From a virus: a stretch of 21,402 nucleotides of DNA. A program made the position numbers and the translations under genes. Below, one piece after another: positions 11,525 through 21,402 of this stretch. The stretch lies in the IMG/VR virus record IMGVR_UViG_3300014325_000050, positions 1 through 21,402 of that record; one strand, 5' to 3'. How positions within the stretch are numbered: the first letter of the stretch is position 1; each line of letters begins with the position of its first letter. Under the pieces are notes generated by a model, which searched no databases, was not told the DNA's origin, and saw only the letters and a program-made list of their open reading frames with translations.

Positions 11525-11552
11525 ATCACTCCCTTAGGGATAAGGGTGACCA

Positions 11553-11629
11553 GCACACAGCCCAGGAAAGTCCAACTGTTGGAGCAGGAGGACTCCCTGA
11601 ATGGGGGCTTAAGCCACTGGGCTGTGTGC
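11553..11629. repeat. 13-bp inverted repeat enclosing two smaller palindromes
   Basis: gcacacagcccag (11553-11565) pairs perfectly with ctgggctgtgtgc (11617-11629). The enclosed 51 bases contain tccaactgttgga (11571-11583) and ggcttaagcc (11605-11614), so the transcript could fold as a closed stem with internal hairpins. It lies in the leader of the exonuclease mRNA. Confidence 0.65.
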
Positions 11630-11669
11630 AGTCACACTGCCAGGGCCTGTACTGGTCACCAGGATTTGA

Positions 11670-11704
11670 CTTTCTGTCCATCTATCAATAGTGCAGACAG
11701 AAAG
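11670..11704. repeat. 9-bp inverted repeat overlapping the leftward promoter (candidate operator)
   Basis: ctttctgtc (11670-11678) and gacagaaag (11696-11704), spacer 17. Further out, accagg (11658-11663) and cctggt (11705-11710) extend the symmetry with a six-base bulge. The right arm lies between the proposed -35 and -10 and the left arm near the expected transcription start, the arrangement of a repressor operator. Confidence 0.5.
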
Positions 11705-11713
11705 CCTGGTCAA
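11685..11713 (-). promoter_or_regulatory. Candidate leftward promoter for the exo-bet operon
   Basis: On the minus strand, TTGACC (11713-11708, five of six to the -35 consensus) is followed after 17 bases by TATTGA (11690-11685), a weak -10. Position (about 160 bases before the exonuclease ATG) and the overlapping inverted repeat support it. It is a by-eye match only. Confidence 0.35.
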
Positions 11714-11821
11714 CTGGCCTGCCTGGACACTGATGGATGCTCAGGGTGACCTAGCCAGGTCAGAATACACTGATATGTGGTAGGGCTAGGTACAGTTCTC
11801 ACTCTCTGTGCCAGGGAGAGG

Positions 11822-11863
11822 GCAAATCTCAGTTTCCTAACGTTTCCAGTTGCTGAGATTTGC
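11822..11863. repeat. 11-bp perfect inverted repeat before the rightward operon
   Basis: gcaaatctcag (11822-11832) and ctgagatttgc (11853-11863) flank a 20-base spacer containing AACGTT. The repeat ends 50 bases before the first rightward start codon. It is most simply an operator for rightward transcription; a serine-integrase attachment site is an alternative, less favoured because the arms do not show the inner dyad seen at 13869-13920. Confidence 0.6.
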
Positions 11864-11913
11864 TGGTCTGATAGGTTCCTGGGTGTAGGAGCCACCTTCA
11901 GGAAGGGAGCAGT

Positions 11914-12339
11914 ATGCCAGGACCAGGCATAGTCAGCAGGGCTGGGCTGGATGCCAGCCTCAGTCAGGACAGCAGAGCTAAATGGCATGTAGTACTGAAG
12001 GATGATTCTGGGGCAGAAGTCTTCAGTGGAGGACCCTATAAGTCAGATACCTCAGCTAAGGCAGCTGCTGGTCAGTGGGTCCAGAGGCACTATCAGGTGG
12101 AGACCCAGGAGGTTCCTGCCCCAGAGCCCAGACCCAAATCTAAGCCTAAGAGGGCTGCCCCATACACAGGTAAGGCTCCCTCTGCCAGCCACCTGAACAG
12201 GCTGCTGAACCTCAGGGCTGACAGGAATGAGGAGAAGGCCCTAGCCCTCAGAACAGAGGCTGATGCCCTGGAGACAGAGGCTAAGAGGCTCAGGGAGGCA
12301 GCAGACACCCTGGCAGGAGGGCCTGATGGTCAAACCTAA
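11914..12339 (+). CDS. First gene of the rightward operon, unknown function (141 aa)
   Basis: A 141-aa protein. After a short N-terminus it contains KWHVVLKDDSGAEVFSGGPY and KAAAGQWVQRHYQVE, a small alpha/beta unit often seen in short phage proteins. A Pro/Lys linker (APEPRPKSKPKRAAPYTG) follows, and then a long charged helix from about residue 98 (NLRADRNEEKALALRTEADA...) likely to form a coiled coil. The ATG at 11914 is preceded at five-base spacing by a strong purine-rich ribosome site (AGGAAGGGAG), which fixes the start. Basic linker plus coiled coil would suit a nucleic-acid or protein adaptor; no family recognised. Confidence 0.72.
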   Translation: MPGPGIVSRAGLDASLSQDSRAKWHVVLKDDSGAEVFSGGPYKSDTSAKAAAGQWVQRHYQVETQEVPAPEPRPKSKPKRAAPYTGKAPSASHLNRLLNLRADRNEEKALALRTEADALETEAKRLREAADTLAGGPDGQT

Positions 12340-12616
12340 GAAGGTCCCTGACAGCTACCAGGACCCATTCTTACATTGCAGGACATTTGGGCACACCTGG
12401 CAGCTGGGTCCAGGTGAGGACCAGGGCCACTTCTACCAGTTCATTCTGGTCTGCTCTGAGTGCCACACCAGAAGGATAGATGTGATTAACAGGAGGACTG
12501 GAGCCCTGGGTGGCTACAGGAGATATGAGTACCCAGAGGGCTATCAGGCCACTAGAGGTGAAGGCCTGGCCAGGACCAGCTACCGCATTGAATTCATCAG
12601 GAGGGTAGCCAGGTGA
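12326..12616 (+). CDS. Small zinc-motif protein with CRTFGHTW signature
   Basis: A 96-aa protein with a conserved-looking C-x-x-F-G-H-x-W (Cys18, His23, Trp25), then LVCSECHTRR (Cys43, Cys46), and a C-terminal RRYEYPEGYQATRGEG. I recognise this pattern from many small actinophage proteins of unknown function; the cysteines and histidine could bind one zinc ion. I start at ATG 12326, which has GGAGG six bases upstream and overlaps the previous gene by 14 bases; the longer in-frame start upstream lies inside that gene. The stop overlaps the next start (GTGA). Confidence 0.8.
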   Translation: MVKPKKVPDSYQDPFLHCRTFGHTWQLGPGEDQGHFYQFILVCSECHTRRIDVINRRTGALGGYRRYEYPEGYQATRGEGLARTSYRIEFIRRVAR

Positions 12617-12936
12617 GCAGTCTCCCTCCCATGGGCCTGGAGGTGACACCTGAGGGCCTAGTCATCCCTGTAGAGGCTCCAGCCTGTGGAGCCACACTGG
12701 ATATCCCAGAGAGGCATGTCCACCTGGTCTGTGACAGGCCAGCAGGGCACCAGGCAGGGACTTATGGGGTCCTAGCCACCAGGCACAGGCAGATAATCCA
12801 GCTGAGTCCTCCACAGGCTGTGGGCTGGTGTGACGACCATTGTTCACAGCCCTGTGAGCCTCTGAAGGGTGTCCTGGACCTGCTCAGGAAGCAGGGCCTA
12901 TCTGCCCATCAGAATAATCAGGATGGCAAACAGTAG
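12613..12936 (+). CDS. Hypothetical Cys/His-rich protein (107 aa)
   Basis: A 107-aa protein from GTG 12613, overlapping the previous stop (GTGA), with GGAGGG seven bases upstream. Potential metal ligands are spread over residues 25-82: ACGATLDIPERHVHLVCDRP, then AGHQAG, then GWCDDHCSQPCE. The pattern C...H.H..C...GH......WC..HC resembles small zinc-bound phage proteins but I do not recognise a family. An internal ATG seven codons in is an alternative start. Confidence 0.68.
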   Translation: MSSLPPMGLEVTPEGLVIPVEAPACGATLDIPERHVHLVCDRPAGHQAGTYGVLATRHRQIIQLSPPQAVGWCDDHCSQPCEPLKGVLDLLRKQGLSAHQNNQDGKQ

Positions 12937-12946
12937 GAAGACAATT

Positions 12947-13243
12947 ATGACAGCTGGCCACCATGGGGCAGCAGTTGAAGCATCCATGAGCACAGACCCT
13001 ACACAGGAAGGAAGGGCAGTGACAGACCAGACCCATCTCCAGGACCCAGAGCCCTACACAGTGCCCAGCACAGGCTTTCTGGTGGAGTATGACCAGCAGA
13101 TTTATGAGGTAGTCAGGACTGGCACACAGGTGGAACTGGTGAGGGACCCACAGGGCAGGGAGCAGCACAAACTGGAGATACGCATTCAGGCTGTCTGGTC
13201 AGAGGAGGGCTACCAGAACCCAGCCATGGATGGGCTGCTGTGA
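12947..13243 (+). CDS. Hypothetical protein (98 aa)
   Basis: A 98-aa protein starting MTAGHHGAAVEASMSTDPTQ. The C-terminal half (FLVEYDQQIYEVVRTGTQVE, then LEIRIQAVWSEEGYQNPAMD) looks like a small beta sheet. ATG 12947 follows AGGAAG at six-base spacing, better than the upstream ATG at 12923, and comes just after the preceding stop. An internal ATG 13 codons on is also possible. The stop overlaps the next gene (GTGA). No function assigned. Confidence 0.65.
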   Translation: MTAGHHGAAVEASMSTDPTQEGRAVTDQTHLQDPEPYTVPSTGFLVEYDQQIYEVVRTGTQVELVRDPQGREQHKLEIRIQAVWSEEGYQNPAMDGLL

Positions 13244-13392
13244 ACCTCAGGGAGCTAGTAGACCAGCTGGCAGCCATTCTGCTTACCCAGGGAGATGTGC
13301 CAGTGCTGTCAGAGGATGGCCAGGCCCTGCATTCTGTGGAATTCAATGATGATGAGGGACCCTGTGTTCTGGTCCTGTTTGGGGAGGACTGA
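13240..13392 (+). CDS. Small acidic protein (50 aa), DG-turn phage family
   Basis: A 50-codon gene starting GTG 13240 (GTGA overlap) and ending in TGATG with the next gene. Sequence: MNLRELVDQLAAILLTQGDV, then PVLSEDGQAL, and a C-terminal strand CVLVLFGED. This layout (an N-terminal helix of the form LxELxxxL, a D-V-P-V strand, a DG turn and a hydrophobic end strand) is common in very small proteins of many tailed phages. Its function is not known to me. The linkage on both sides shows it is a genuine gene. Confidence 0.75.
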   Translation: MNLRELVDQLAAILLTQGDVPVLSEDGQALHSVEFNDDEGPCVLVLFGED

Positions 13393-13622
13393 TGGTGGAG
13401 CAGAGGGCTGCCCTACATGCCTATTTGTCACCTGAGTCCCATGCTGCCTGGCAGGCATTCTCAGAGGAGAATGGAGTCAGTGTCACAGGGCTCCTGGAGG
13501 CTCTGGGCCTGAACCTGGCCAGAGAGATAGCAGAGACAGGAGATGCTGACATCAGGCAGGACTGGGTGAAGGCTGGCAGGAAGATAGATGGCATCAGGAG
13601 GAGAAGAGGAGGGCAGCAGTAG
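13392..13622 (+). CDS. Ribbon-helix-helix-like small DNA-binding protein
   Basis: A 76-aa protein. AALHAYLSPESHAAWQAFSE gives a short strand and first helix, and NGVSVTGLLEALGLNLAREI the turn and second helix, the pattern of ribbon-helix-helix (Arc/CopG-type) proteins. The C-terminus is very basic (KAGRKIDGIRRRRGG). It could be the phage's transcription regulator or a recombination directionality factor, since it is encoded in the integrase operon and no other repressor is obvious. ATG shares a base with the previous stop (TGATG); the stop overlaps the next start (TAGTG). Confidence 0.72.
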   Translation: MVEQRAALHAYLSPESHAAWQAFSEENGVSVTGLLEALGLNLAREIAETGDADIRQDWVKAGRKIDGIRRRRGGQQ

Positions 13623-13828
13623 TGCCTGAGTCCTACAGAATCCATGGTGAGCATCACACTGAGTACCTGAGGGCCAGGGAGTGTATCGCTAGGGCCTACA
13701 GGGAGGCTCAGGTATTGAACCTCAGAGCCTCCTCTGAAGCGTTTGCAGAGGCTGTCCTGGCCAGGCTGGCAGCCCTGGAGCCACCCATGCTGGTAGTGGC
13801 CCTGGATGAGGTAGAAGAGTCTGGATGA
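13622..13828 (+). CDS. Hypothetical helical protein (68 aa)
   Basis: A 68-aa protein from GTG 13622 (TAGTG overlap), starting MPESYRIHGEHHTEYLRARE and continuing as two long helices (IARAYREAQVLNLRAS, AFAEAVLARLAALEPP) and an acidic end. No family recognised. It is the last gene before the hairpin-rich gap that precedes the integrase end of the operon. Confidence 0.65.
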   Translation: MPESYRIHGEHHTEYLRARECIARAYREAQVLNLRASSEAFAEAVLARLAALEPPMLVVALDEVEESG

Positions 13829-13978
13829 GCAGCCCTGTACTGGCAGGCCCTGTGACCAGGGCAGGGCTGAGGTGTAGGAGTAGAGTCCTGTGTGAGTCCA
13901 GGACTTCAGCACTACACCTCTGATGCCGATACTGTGTCTGGTGGCTAGAGGGCCACCCTGACACAGGAGCACAGCATC
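13829..13978. other. Gap with three consecutive dyads upstream of the integrase
   Basis: 150 bases with three back-to-back symmetric elements: 13831-13837/13862-13868 (agccctg/cagggct, with an alternative inner pairing 13847-13852/13857-13862), the nested dyad 13869-13920, and 13932-13938/13960-13966 (ctgtgtc/gacacag) enclosing ggtggc/gccacc (13940-13945/13952-13957). A 32-codon frame (13825-13923, ATGA-coupled to the previous gene) and a 12-codon frame (13923-13961) cross it, but their content is unconvincing. It likely contains the attachment site and possibly a structured transcript. Confidence 0.55.
13869..13920. other. attP: Candidate attP for the serine integrase
   Basis: gaggtgtag (13869-13877) pairs with ctacacctc (13912-13920), and inside it agtcctg (13884-13890) pairs with caggact (13899-13905). 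Both dyads share exactly the same centre, between 13894 and 13895. The eight central bases tgtgagtc are not symmetric, and the central dinucleotide is GA, which is non-palindromic as directional serine recombination requires. Large serine integrases bind attP sites of about 50 bp as dimers with inner (recombinase-domain) and outer (zinc-domain) motifs. The integrase starts 360 bases downstream. Function is inferred from geometry. Confidence 0.5.
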
Positions 13979-14179
13979 ATGATTCTGACTATCCAGCAGA
14001 GACAGGCCCTAGATTCCTATGTGGAACTGGCCTGGGGCAATGGTGCCTGGGAGGAGTACCCAGCCATAAGGCAGTCTGCCATTGCCTGGGCTCTGGCAGG
14101 AGTGGATGAGGAGTATGCCAGGGCCATCATTAAGTATCTGGGTAAGGCCTGGGCACTGAAGCTGGAGCAGGCTAAGTGA
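13979..14179 (+). CDS. Hypothetical protein (66 aa)
   Basis: A 66-aa helical protein starting MILTIQQRQALDSYVELAWG, with several tryptophans and an AIIKYLGKAWALKLEQAK C-terminus. AGGAG lies 13-17 bases before the ATG, somewhat far. The stop overlaps the following GTG start (GTGA), so it is coupled to the micro-gene and integrase that follow. No family recognised. Confidence 0.68.
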   Translation: MILTIQQRQALDSYVELAWGNGAWEEYPAIRQSAIAWALAGVDEEYARAIIKYLGKAWALKLEQAK

Positions 14180-14283
14180 ACGCCTTCCAGCTGGATGACT
14201 TTGACCTAGCCTTGGTGAGGCTCCACCAGTTCCTGGCTGCTGTGCAGTGGACCAGAGCTAACGTCCTGGAGGTGTCCCAGTGA
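14176..14283 (+). CDS. 35-aa micro-gene linked to the integrase
   Basis: A 35-codon gene that exactly bridges two genes: GTG 14176 overlaps the previous stop (GTGA), with GGAG eight bases upstream, and its own TGA overlaps the integrase GTG (GTGA). Protein: MNAFQLDDFDLALVRLHQFL, continuing to an end at NVLEVSQ. It looks like one or two amphipathic helices. A leader whose translation feeds ribosomes to the integrase, or a small partner such as a directionality factor, are both conceivable; neither is shown. Confidence 0.62.
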   Translation: MNAFQLDDFDLALVRLHQFLAAVQWTRANVLEVSQ

Positions 14284-15719
14284 GCCCCCAGTTTGCTGCC
14301 CTGGAGAGGCTGTCAACTGTCAAAGAGAAGGCTGAGAACCAGGCCAGGGCTCTGGAGAGGCAGCACACAGGTAATGAGCAGCTGGCCAGGCTCCTGGGTG
14401 GCACTGTGGGAGCCCACTACTGTGACCCTGATAAGTCTGCCTACAAAGAGGGAGTGGTCAGGCCTGAATTTGATAAGTGCCTCAGGGAGCTAGACCAGTG
14501 GGATGGTCTCCTGGCTTCTGACCTGGACAGGGTGACCAGAGACCCTGCTATTGGAGAGGTGATTATTAAGAGGGTCAGGGAGTGCTCTAACCCTGTGGTC
14601 TACACCAGGAACCCAGAAGCAGCCTGTGGCTATGAGACCTTTGACCTGAGCACTGAGAGAGGCAGAGAAGCGTTCAGGACCAACATCCTGGCCATCAGGA
14701 GGGAAGCCAGGAAGGCCAGTGAGAGGCAGGCATCCAGGCATGAGCAGTGGAGGGATGCAGGCAGGCCTGTTGGAGCCAGGGCATTTGGTGAGAAGCCAGG
14801 GAAGCTGGAGCTAGATGAGGTAGAGGCTGGACTGATAAGAGAGGGAGCCCTGGACCTGTTGGCAGGGAAACCTCTATGGCAGCTAACCAGAGAGTGGAAG
14901 GCAGCTGGTGTCCTGGGTCCCAGAGGGACCCAGCTGGAGAGGGTCACCATTAGGAATATGTACCTGTCACCCAGGCTGGCTGGGTGGAGGGTCCACACAC
15001 CTGCCAGGCAGAAGGGCCAGGCTGCTGTGCCCAGGTCCCAGTGGATAGCCAGGGACAGCATCACAGGTGAGCCCATCAGGAGTAAGACTCCAGCCATCCT
15101 GACCCAGGCAGTCTGGGAGGCAGTAGTCCTGGAACTGGAGGGCAGGAAGGAAGCCCAGTCAGTCAGGCCCTCTAACAGTGCCAAGTACCTGCTCAGTGGT
15201 CTGGCTTACTGCTCCACCTGCACAGCCAGACTCCATGGGGCCTGGAGGGAGGCAAAGGGCTACCACTGCTATAGGTGTCCAGATGGGTGTGTCACTATCC
15301 ATGGGCCAGAGCTAGAGAGGTATGTCACAGGGCTCCTGCTGGAGCACTGGGCTAACGCTCCAGAGCTAGTGCCTGATGTCCAGCCCTTCCAGGGTGAGGC
15401 TGAACTGGCCAGGTTGAAGGGCCAGCTGGAGGAGCTATCAGAAGCCAGAGTGTCAGGACTCATCCCAGACCTGGGTGAGTACCTGGAGGAGAAGGGGAAG
15501 GTGAACACCCTTCTGAAGCCTCTAGAGGCTGAGCGTAAGAAGTGGGCTAAGGCCCAGGTGACACCCAGGGCTGTGGGCTCTGTGGAGCTATGGGAGAAGG
15601 CAGACCTGGATGGTAAGAGGCTAATGGCCAGGAGGGAGCTAGAGATGGTGCAGGTGGATAAGGCTAGGAAGGGCCTTAAGAGGTTTGATTCCCTGAGGGT
15701 CCACCTAGAGTGGCGCTAA
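14280..15719 (+). CDS. int: Large serine integrase (site-specific recombinase)
   Basis: A 479-aa large serine recombinase. The catalytic domain opens with ALERLSTVKEKAENQARALE, where Ser12 in R-L-S is the probable nucleophile. VRPEFDKCL (about 60) and DLDRVTRDP (82-89, catalytic arginines) follow. The recombinase domain runs about 165-300 (EVEAGLIREGALDLL, then RNMYLSPRLAGWRVH). A zinc ribbon follows with CSTC (311-314) and CYRCPDGC (330-337). Next comes a coiled-coil segment (about 374-430, LARLKGQLEELSEARVSG) as in family members that control directionality. It integrates the phage at attB. The start is GTG 14280. The 3' end overlaps an opposite-strand gene by 44 bases. Total length is normal for the family. 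Confidence 0.95.
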   Translation: MSPQFAALERLSTVKEKAENQARALERQHTGNEQLARLLGGTVGAHYCDPDKSAYKEGVVRPEFDKCLRELDQWDGLLASDLDRVTRDPAIGEVIIKRVRECSNPVVYTRNPEAACGYETFDLSTERGREAFRTNILAIRREARKASERQASRHEQWRDAGRPVGARAFGEKPGKLELDEVEAGLIREGALDLLAGKPLWQLTREWKAAGVLGPRGTQLERVTIRNMYLSPRLAGWRVHTPARQKGQAAVPRSQWIARDSITGEPIRSKTPAILTQAVWEAVVLELEGRKEAQSVRPSNSAKYLLSGLAYCSTCTARLHGAWREAKGYHCYRCPDGCVTIHGPELERYVTGLLLEHWANAPELVPDVQPFQGEAELARLKGQLEELSEARVSGLIPDLGEYLEEKGKVNTLLKPLEAERKKWAKAQVTPRAVGSVELWEKADLDGKRLMARRELEMVQVDKARKGLKRFDSLRVHLEWR

Positions 15720-15924
15720 CACCAGCAGCCCTGGCTAGAGCCTCCCAGTGCTCACTGCTTCTGACAGGAGCCTGCTCCAGTTGCCTGGCCTTCCAGGCAG
15801 CCAGTGACTCTGGGTCCAGGCCCCATCTCAGAGAGTCCTCACAGTCCACCCACACAATAGGCTCATTTGCTCCAGAGGGTCCTGTGTGGCCCTCTGTTGC
15901 GTTTGGGCTCTGCTCAGGTGTCAT
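15676..15924 (-). CDS. Small hypothetical protein, convergent with integrase (82 aa)
   Basis: An 82-aa frame starting MTPEQSPNATEGHTGPSGAN, with a central EPIVWVDCEDSLRWGLDPES and helices SLAAWKARQLEQ and SSEHWEALARAAGV. AGAGGG lies seven bases before the ATG. Its 3' end overlaps the integrase 3' end on the other strand. It is the last gene of the leftward array, separated from the rest by a 107-base hairpin-rich gap. It is plausible but unrecognised; the N- and C-termini look disordered. Confidence 0.5.
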   Translation of the reverse strand: MTPEQSPNATEGHTGPSGANEPIVWVDCEDSLRWGLDPESLAAWKARQLEQAPVRSSEHWEALARAAGVSATLGGPSGNQTS

Positions 15925-16031
15925 CCATCAGCCCTCTCTGCTCCAGGCCCTTAGAAGGGCACACAGCAGGCCCCCAGGCCAGGAAGGGCTCCAGGGAGTG
16001 AGGCTAGGAGCAGCCTGGGGGCCTGCCAGTG
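15925..16031. terminator. GC-rich hairpin gap at the convergence of the two operons
   Basis: A 14-bp perfect inverted repeat, gcaggcccccaggc (15966-15979) and gcctgggggcctgc (16013-16026), has a 33-base spacer with an extra 5-bp pairing (15988-15992/16007-16011). Beside it gccctt/aagggc (15947-15952/15955-15960) forms a second dyad. The long stem starts six bases after the stop of the upstream minus-strand gene. No T-run follows on either strand, so a classical intrinsic terminator is not proven, but a strong bidirectional transcription barrier here is sensible. Confidence 0.45.
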
Positions 16032-18947: not shown

Positions 18948-21402
18948 TGATAGGCCCTTCTCTGGCTGTGTACCGCTGGAGGGCTCCCACTAGATCCCTC
19001 TGGAGCTTAGGGCTGTCTATGCCCAGGCCTGAGTGCTGGATGGTCACATTGATAACTGTGCTCCCAGACTGGGAACCCATTCTGGATGCCAGGCTGGTAG
19101 GGATGATGGCTCCACCTGTCCTGGGCACAAACAGTTCTGGCCCTCTCTCACCCACCATGTAGGGCTGCCCTCTGAGGACAGGCCCACCATCAGCCCTACC
19201 TCCAAATGCATCACCTATCACACCTAGCCCTCTGGTGAAGTCCTGCCACCATCTGCCCAGGCCTGACAGTTCCTGCTTAGCAGGCCCAGTGTCTGCTGTG
19301 ATGGTGGCCTTCCCTCCCTGGTTCACCTGGTTAATCTGGTCCTGTACTCCAGCGATAGGCCCAGCAGCTGGTGCTGTGTTAGCTGTGATGGCAGGGTTAG
19401 CTCCCTGGTCCACTACATCCAGTTTGCCCTGGGTGGTGTCCAGGGCAGAATTTGCCTGCTGGTTAGCCAGGTTCACCTGGGTATTAATGTTCTCTGGAGT
19501 CAGGCCTAGCCTATCAATGTAGGCCTTAGCAGCTTCCTCTGTGTAACCAGTCGCCACCATATTGGCTATCAGCTTCTGCCTGTTGGTCTCCAGGGCAGCA
19601 GTAGCCAGGCCTATATCGTTTGTCTCCTGGAACTTTGCATTTGCCAGGTCCATAGCAGACTTCACATTTGCCTGGATGGCACTATTGTTCTCATTCACAG
19701 CTGCTGTCTGGGCCAGGGTAGTGGCCTGGTTTGCATCTATGAGCCCATTAGCTATGGCCCTGTTCTCATTCAGCTTCCCTATCAGGGTCAGACTGTTCTC
19801 TGAGTACTGGGTCTCTGCCTGGGCTGCTGAGAGGTGAACACCTATCAGGGCATCCAGGGACTGCTTATAGGCATCAGTCTTATCTTTGGCTGTGCTGGCA
19901 GCATCATTGAACTTCTCCTGAGCATCACTCATATTCAGTGTGGATGTAGTGGCAAACTGAGTCTTCTCATACAGGGCAGTCACCCTGTCCACAGCATCCT
20001 GTGATGTCAGGTCTATCTTCTTAGATTCAGCGATGGCCTTCAGGGATGCATACATAGCATCCACCTGGCCACCCAGTTCCCCAGTGGGGCCTATGGCCTT
20101 ATCACAGGCATCAGCCTGTGCCTCCAGGCCACTGGCTGCTGCTACTGTCTGGGAGGCATAGCCAAACAGAGCATTCTCAGAGTCCCTGATAGTCTTCTCA
20201 TACTCTGCCTGCTTCTCTTTCAGGGTAATAATCTTTGATGTCTGGTCATCCACACTGTCTTCCACATCATGGAAGGGAATGAGGATGTCAGCCACAGAGG
20301 CAGCTATCCCACCAGGGCCATAGGTCTCTGCCAGGTGCTTCCTGTTCTCAGCCAGTTCATCACTGACCTTCTTCATACCCTGGTGCATAGAGTCCAGGGA
20401 TGAGGTGTCTATGTCTTTGACCACAGAGTCAAAGAATTCATCAGCAGACTCTGAGGAGGTGTCAAAGGCAGAGACCAGGCCATAGAGGACACCAGCCACA
20501 GCTGCCACAGCCAGAGTCACAGGGAGCATGGTGAGGGCCAGAGTCCCAGACACAGCTGCCAGCACACCTTCTGCTGCTGCTGTCTCCAGGAAGATGGCAG
20601 CCAGGGTTCCCATGTATCCAATCACTGAGGAGACCCACTGGATGACTCCCTGGCCCATGAGGATGGCCTGGGCAGCTATCACAGGACCATAGGCACCAGC
20701 CAGGGCTACCAGGGCCACTCCACCCAGATACTTAATTAGCTCTGTGTGGTCAGTGACAAACCCTGACACAGCCTCTAGGGCTGGTCCCATAGCACCCAGC
20801 AATACACCTGCCACAGCATCCACAGCAGGAATAAGTTTGGCTCCTATCTCCTCCTGGAGGTTCCCTGCTGCCACCATCAGTTTGTCCAGAGGAGTGCCAG
20901 CTGCTTCTGCTGCTCCCTTAAATTCCTTAGATAGCTCAGCCAGCACTATCTTCTGGGCTCCCAGCAGGTCACCAGACTCAGCCATCAGCTTTATCTGTGC
21001 CTTCTGGTCCTCAGTGAAGCTGACACCTGCCTTTGACAGTGCAGTGATGCCCTTCAGAGGGTCATTCAGTGCCTTACCCAGCTGGACAGCAGCACCAGAC
21101 ATATCGGTACCCAGTGCTGTGGACATATCCAGCGCCAGGCCAGTGGCCTGGTCAAAGACATCATTCCCTTCTCCTACCTCATTCTTCACATTTGCAAAGG
21201 TGAGGAGAAGGTTTGCACCAGACTGGATAGCCTCATCATCAGCACCAGTCTTATCTGAGATGGCTCCTGCTAGCTCTGAGACCTGGGCAGCACTGGTCCA
21301 GGAGGCAGCACCAATAGTCTTAATGACTCTCTCAGTCTCTCTGCCTATCTTTGCTGACTCAGCAGCAGCATTGAAGGCACCCACACCCAGGGCCACCAGC
21401 CC
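18940..21402 (-). CDS. Tape-measure protein (main part; continues at 204-1)
   Basis: This is the tail length tape-measure protein, joined through the circular end to its N-terminus, about 870 residues in all. The conserved tape-measure motif is seen at about residues 160-207 (NDPLKGITALSKAGVSFTED, then SGDLLGAQKIVLAELSKEF). Hydrophobic segments that can enter the host membrane span about 274-362. A long helical, Ala/Gln/Asn-rich region with repeated SxDQAN-like content follows. The C-terminus has DGGPVLRGQPYMVGERGPEL and FVPRTGGAIIPTSL, characteristic of the family. It sets tail length and likely guides DNA entry. At about 1.5 angstrom per residue it would fit a tail near 130 nm (estimate from the lambda rule). 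Confidence 0.93.
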   Translation of the reverse strand, partial: GLVALGVGAFNAAAESAKIGRETERVIKTIGAASWTSAAQVSELAGAISDKTGADDEAIQSGANLLLTFANVKNEVGEGNDVFDQATGLALDMSTALGTDMSGAAVQLGKALNDPLKGITALSKAGVSFTEDQKAQIKLMAESGDLLGAQKIVLAELSKEFKGAAEAAGTPLDKLMVAAGNLQEEIGAKLIPAVDAVAGVLLGAMGPALEAVSGFVTDHTELIKYLGGVALVALAGAYGPVIAAQAILMGQGVIQWVSSVIGYMGTLAAIFLETAAAEGVLAAVSGTLALTMLPVTLAVAAVAGVLYGLVSAFDTSSESADEFFDSVVKDIDTSSLDSMHQGMKKVSDELAENRKHLAETYGPGGIAASVADILIPFHDVEDSVDDQTSKIITLKEKQAEYEKTIRDSENALFGYASQTVAAASGLEAQADACDKAIGPTGELGGQVDAMYASLKAIAESKKIDLTSQDAVDRVTALYEKTQFATTSTLNMSDAQEKFNDAASTAKDKTDAYKQSLDALIGVHLSAAQAETQYSENSLTLIGKLNENRAIANGLIDANQATTLAQTAAVNENNSAIQANVKSAMDLANAKFQETNDIGLATAALETNRQKLIANMVATGYTEEAAKAYIDRLGLTPENINTQVNLANQQANSALDTTQGKLDVVDQGANPAITANTAPAAGPIAGVQDQINQVNQGGKATITADTGPAKQELSGLGRWWQDFTRGLGVIGDAFGGRADGGPVLRGQPYMVGERGPELFVPRTGGAIIPTSLASRMGSQSGSTVINVTIQHSGLGIDSPKLQRDLVGALQRYTAREGPISV
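21349..21402. repeat. Terminal direct repeat, copy 2
   Basis: Exact copy of bases 1-54. Removing one copy gives a 21,348-base circle on which the tape measure is intact. Confidence 0.9.

Follow-up and report, generated by a model that had tools for sequence, protein, structure and literature searches.

A predicted attP site upstream of a large serine integrase gene in a small tailed phage genome

The 52-bp double dyad at positions 13869-13920 of the window (the whole 21,402-nt stretch of the virus record IMGVR_UViG_3300014325_000050 analyzed here) is very probably the attP of the large serine integrase encoded beside it, and we put the probability of this reading at roughly 85%. The initial annotation had proposed the site as a probable attP, a reading supported by published attP geometry, by a symmetry scan calibrated on known sites, and by equivalent sites upstream of related integrases. 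Its direct support comes from the dyad itself, the type and fold of the integrase, the geometry of the arms, and the co-location of dyads and integrase genes in relatives and at known attPs. The predicted site would be ordinary in mechanism and of an already known type.

The integrase gene and the dyad upstream of it

The window is a small tailed phage encoding a terminase, portal, prohead protease, capsid, tape measure, M23 lysin, and RecT. Bases 1-54 are identical to bases 21349-21402, with the tape-measure frame on both sides of the joint; the identical ends therefore indicate that the genome is circular, with a length of about 21,348 bp. Its size of about 21.35 kb is small for a tailed phage that encodes a serine integrase. 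On the + strand, small early ORFs run from 11914 up to the integrase gene (14280-15719).

The ORF at 14280-15719 (+ strand, 479 aa) is a full-length large serine integrase with the motifs R10-x-S12 and D83-R84-x-x-R87, zinc cysteines, and a coiled coil. In Pfam, it scored above cut-off for Recombinase and slightly below cut-off for the recombinase zinc ribbon, and it also matched the phrog_95 integrase (7e-53). Among named proteins, those closest to it are the serine integrases of the Streptomyces phages Celia, Yosif, and Conan (29-31% identical over the whole protein), of which Conan is the best match at 31%. R10, S12, D83, R84, R87, and the zinc cysteines are invariant across 14 sequences, and a structure model built from this alignment (pLDDT 82) had as its best PDB match the Bxb1 integrase bound to attP and attB (E 5e-18), followed by the phiC31, SPbeta, and A118 integrases. 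Bxb1 is thus the closest solved fold, at 17% identity in the structural alignment. A model made from two sequences alone was not usable (pLDDT 38), and a two-sequence profile returned only repeat-protein matches from the PDB, which we judged spurious. Since the ORF is a large serine integrase, an attP is expected nearby.

The initial annotation placed the dyad in the sole gap of the integrase operon, 360 bases before the integrase start, and both statements hold. From 11914 to 15719, only the interval 13829-13978 is a real gap, since short ORFs (13240-13392 and 14176-14283) occupy the other apparent gaps, and the edge of the site lies 360 bp from the GTG at 14280 (about 385 bp when measured from the dyad centre). 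The predicted attP thus adjoins a serine integrase in the same gene cluster, yet stands farther from it than the usual 26-45 bp. This spacing, with two small ORFs before the integrase, is unusually large and departs from the usual layout.

The predicted attP has no strand of its own and consists of two 26-bp half-sites (GAGGTGTAGGAGTAGAGTCCTG and GAGGTGTAGTGCTGAAGTCCTG). The left outer arm, GAGGTGTAG (13869-13877, + strand, 9 bp), is the putative zinc-ribbon-domain motif of half-site P, as judged from published geometry (PMC3783163), and the right outer arm, CTACACCTC (13912-13920), is GAGGTGTAG on the - strand. Nested between them are the 7-bp left inner arm AGTCCTG (13884-13890, + strand), a putative recombinase-domain contact, and the right inner arm CAGGACT (13899-13905), which is AGTCCTG on the - strand. 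The arms thus span d5-11 (inner) and d18-26 (outer) from the centre. Inspection of the letters confirmed that both pairs are exact and share the centre 13894/13895, and that the middle is a non-palindromic GA (13894, G; 13895, A; + strand), which is the predicted crossover dinucleotide and would give the reaction its direction.

Such a structure is rare by chance. An inner run of at least 7 together with an outer run of at least 9 on one even centre was found in 0 of 40 first-order Markov windows and at 3 sites across 400 second-order Markov windows; in the real window it occurs once, at 13869-13920 alone. A chance dyad that also landed within the integrase operon's single 150-bp gap would be much rarer again. 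The half-site pattern had no match elsewhere in the window with up to 3 mismatches allowed (expected 0.01). Scored for symmetry over all 21.4 kb, the dyad ranked first (24.5 versus 19.0 for the next site). The scoring zones were fixed after the reported dyad had been read, and we therefore place weight on the calibration described below and not on these chance figures alone.

A perfect dyad could also act as RNA: folded into a stem-loop in the early transcript, it might cause attenuation or protection of the stretch of message that joins the early genes to int. The + strand does fold stably (-34.6 kcal/mol, z -3.9), but such folding is expected of any perfect dyad, and the site has no T tail and belongs to no Rfam family, making this the least probable of the explanations that we weighed. 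Two further candidates were rejected: the dyad is not a G+C stem with a T run behind it, as an intrinsic terminator would be, and a tRNA explanation was negative.

Comparison with known attP sites

In the structure of the A118 family, the contacts of one integrase dimer extend over about 50 bp of attP, and each half-site carries a 9-bp zinc-domain motif at its positions 16-24, or roughly 17-25 counted from the centre, with the recombinase domain bound inside it (PMC3783163). The arms in the window agree with this geometry to within one position, which supports the earlier claim that the site has the two motifs per half-site that a large serine integrase needs. The A118 (Listeria LI) attP is alike in its 9-bp outer motif and in the roughly 50 bp contacted by a dimer, but its outer motif lies one position nearer the centre and the site is downstream of int. 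The attP of the Streptomyces phage phiJoe, which was confirmed experimentally (PMC5311408), resembles the site in the window: it is an imperfect inverted repeat of about 50 bp around a two-base centre and lies a short way upstream of the serine integrase gene. It differs in its GG centre, its other arm sequences, its distance of 44 bp from int, and a divergent RDF gene that flanks attP opposite int. The Bxb1 attP has its dyad at d6-10 and d18-24, nearly the same as in the window, but has a GT centre and lies 26 bp before int.

We calibrated the symmetry scan on these and other systems, and the A118, R4, Bxb1, and phiC31 sites used are those that we take to be the known attPs on the basis of their cores. 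The attP ranked first in 8 kb for phiJoe, where it was centred on the GG annotated in KX815338, first for Bxb1, with the dyad centre on the GT, and first in its region for A118. For phiBT1, the scan gave a tied first site inside the annotated attP. The attP of R4 ranked third and that of phiC31 only sixth, and those of TG1 and TP901-1 were not recovered among the top-listed sites. A second scoring used a profile trained on six known attPs alone. Over the whole window, this profile placed 13894 first (13.5 versus 10.0 for the next site), and when each known site was left out in turn, they ranked 1, 1, 1, 2, 2, and 15.

Equivalent dyads recur beside other serine integrase genes. Celia, Yosif, phiCAM, Curiosium, L063, L064, and L067 each have a double dyad 28-45 bp ahead of the integrase start codon. 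In the Streptomyces phages Celia, Yosif, and Conan, the double dyad is 44-45 bp from int and is very strong in Celia (score 26.0) but weak in Conan (15.5); the arm sequences in all three Streptomyces phages differ from those in the window, and their attPs are, like ours, only predicted here. At p<0.05, an upstream site was present at 12 of 23 serine-integrase loci. Taken together, the loci give a p of 2e-20, a figure that is only indicative, since several loci are homologous, the p-values are floored, and the best upstream match in phiC31 and phiBT1 is not attP itself. In 302 kb scanned, six sites had inner runs of at least 6 and outer runs of at least 7, and three of these (the window, L063, and L067) lie directly upstream of a serine integrase.

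The same scores bear on whether attP lies elsewhere, at the 14190/14191 dyad, at 11822-11863, or downstream of int, with 13869-13920 being something else. The A118 attP does lie downstream of int, and 14169-14212 matches at 18 of 28 positions. However, the 14190 dyad lies in a coding region and is centred on a palindrome (CCAG/CTGG), and L002, which has a 79% identical integrase, lacks the right half of this dyad. The 11842 dyad (11822-11863) has weak inner symmetry, the 15966-16026 structure is a simple hairpin located after int, and the 15719 site reached only 9.3 against 13.5 at 13894 with the six-attP profile. The dyads at 14190, 11842, 15719, and 15884 all score below 13894, and the preference of the initial annotation for 13869-13920 over 11822-11863 and 15966-16026 is upheld, as both score far lower. 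We consider an attP at any of these other positions unlikely.

Two of these repeats are features in their own right. An 11-bp perfect inverted repeat (GCAAATCTCAG...CTGAGATTTGC) makes up 11822-11863 in the divergent intergenic region 11525-11913 and is operator-like, and the 14-bp perfect inverted repeat at 15966-16026, with a 33-nt loop after int, is found in L002 too.

Relatives and the exchanged integrase module

Four relatives (G005, G007, G008, and G010; compared through L036, L037, L038, and L039) share with the window the early operon (up to about 13624) and the lysin side (onward from about 15926), with a tyrosine integrase module replacing the 13624-15926 segment. The dyad at 13869-13920 is absent from all four, and the serine integrase and dyad therefore lie within one exchanged segment. 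The only close relative with a serine integrase (G001/L002) has an integrase 79% identical to that in the window; its contig begins about 50 bp right of the dyad, so that its span leaves out the arms. CpG observed/expected is 0.03 in the integrase gene and in the early region alike, and because the integrase is as CpG-poor as its surroundings, its sequence composition makes a recent entry of the module from a CpG-rich phage appear unlikely. As a separate observation, L039 has a double dyad (inner 5, outer 9) centred at 2575, about 770 bp before the tyrosine integrase of G010.

The relatives also bear on the idea that the dyad is an operator at which a dimeric or tetrameric regulator, such as the product of an upstream small ORF, controls the unit formed by the 66-aa ORF and int. 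The dyad does occupy the only gap in the operon, where an int promoter would be expected, and the 76-aa ORF at 13392-13622, kept in all relatives, looks on inspection like a small DNA-binding protein. Yet a 52-bp site with 9- and 7-bp arms on one centre exceeds the usual operator size, its half-site occurs once in the window, the dyad is missing from relatives that retain the same upstream ORFs, and its layout recurs at confirmed attPs. An operator seems unlikely, and slightly less probable even than an attP elsewhere. The 76-aa ORF lies upstream of either integrase type and had no match in Pfam or PHROG; its product may be a small DNA-binding protein, judging by inspection only.

Between the predicted attP and the integrase lie a 66-aa ORF (13979-14179, + strand) and a 35-aa ORF (14176-14283, + strand), the latter with a GTG start, overlapping the ends of both its neighbours and absent from L002. 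The 66-aa ORF is a speculative RDF candidate, because small ORFs beside int sometimes encode such factors; the 62-aa gp52 of phiJoe is a directionality factor encoded beside int (PMC5311408). A 61-aa homologue, 32-38% identical, lies just after the tyrosine integrase in the relatives, and queries with the 66-aa ORF and with an upstream 68-aa ORF found no match beyond the L002 contig. We regard it as improbable that the 66-aa protein is a directionality factor that stayed where it was when one class of integrase replaced the other; if this were true, one small-protein family would serve both serine and tyrosine recombinase chemistries.

Predicted integration and genome composition

If 13869-13920 is the attP, one integrase dimer would occupy the 52-bp site, with zinc-ribbon domains on the outer 9-bp arms and recombinase domains on the inner arms, and the complex would synapse with a host attB carrying bound integrase. 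Ser12 would then cut attP and attB with a 2-bp stagger at GA 13894-13895, after which the half-sites would rotate and the circular phage would be joined into the chromosome, flanked by attL and attR. The asymmetric GA would set the orientation of integration. In the resulting prophage, P', the 66-aa ORF, and int would come first, in that order, at one end, and the early operon and then P would close the other.

Two genome scans, for which the integrase pair and eight terminases served as queries, turned up no prophage, attL, attR, or attB, and searches of viral contigs with the exact and half-site patterns gave no match. The genome scans returned no relatives, and thus no attB or host was identified; likewise, as no junction was found, we infer from the dyad the crossover at GA and the direction in the host. 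The initial annotation had also expected the site to predict the host attB core, which is too strong. For serine integrases, the phage and host sites need have little in common beyond the central dinucleotide.

A precise predicted attP (52 bp, GA crossover) is now available for an uncultured phage; with its integrase it makes a new, divergent pair of potential use for DNA integration, though the practical gain is modest because host and attB were not found in our searches. Our data also show that a simple double-dyad scan can indicate where attP lies without a prophage, as several confirmed sites were recovered with the right centre.

The window shows an extreme depletion of CpG (observed/expected 0.09 at 56% G+C). 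Among relatives (L002, L007-L015, and L036-L039), values are mostly 0.07-0.35, with 0.89 in L014, and this graded loss within one phage clade is striking and more surprising than the presence of an attP in this window. Possible causes are restriction that targets CpG or an unusual host. All NCGN contexts are rare, and in five genes arginine is encoded by AGG/AGA 127 times versus 27 times by CGN.
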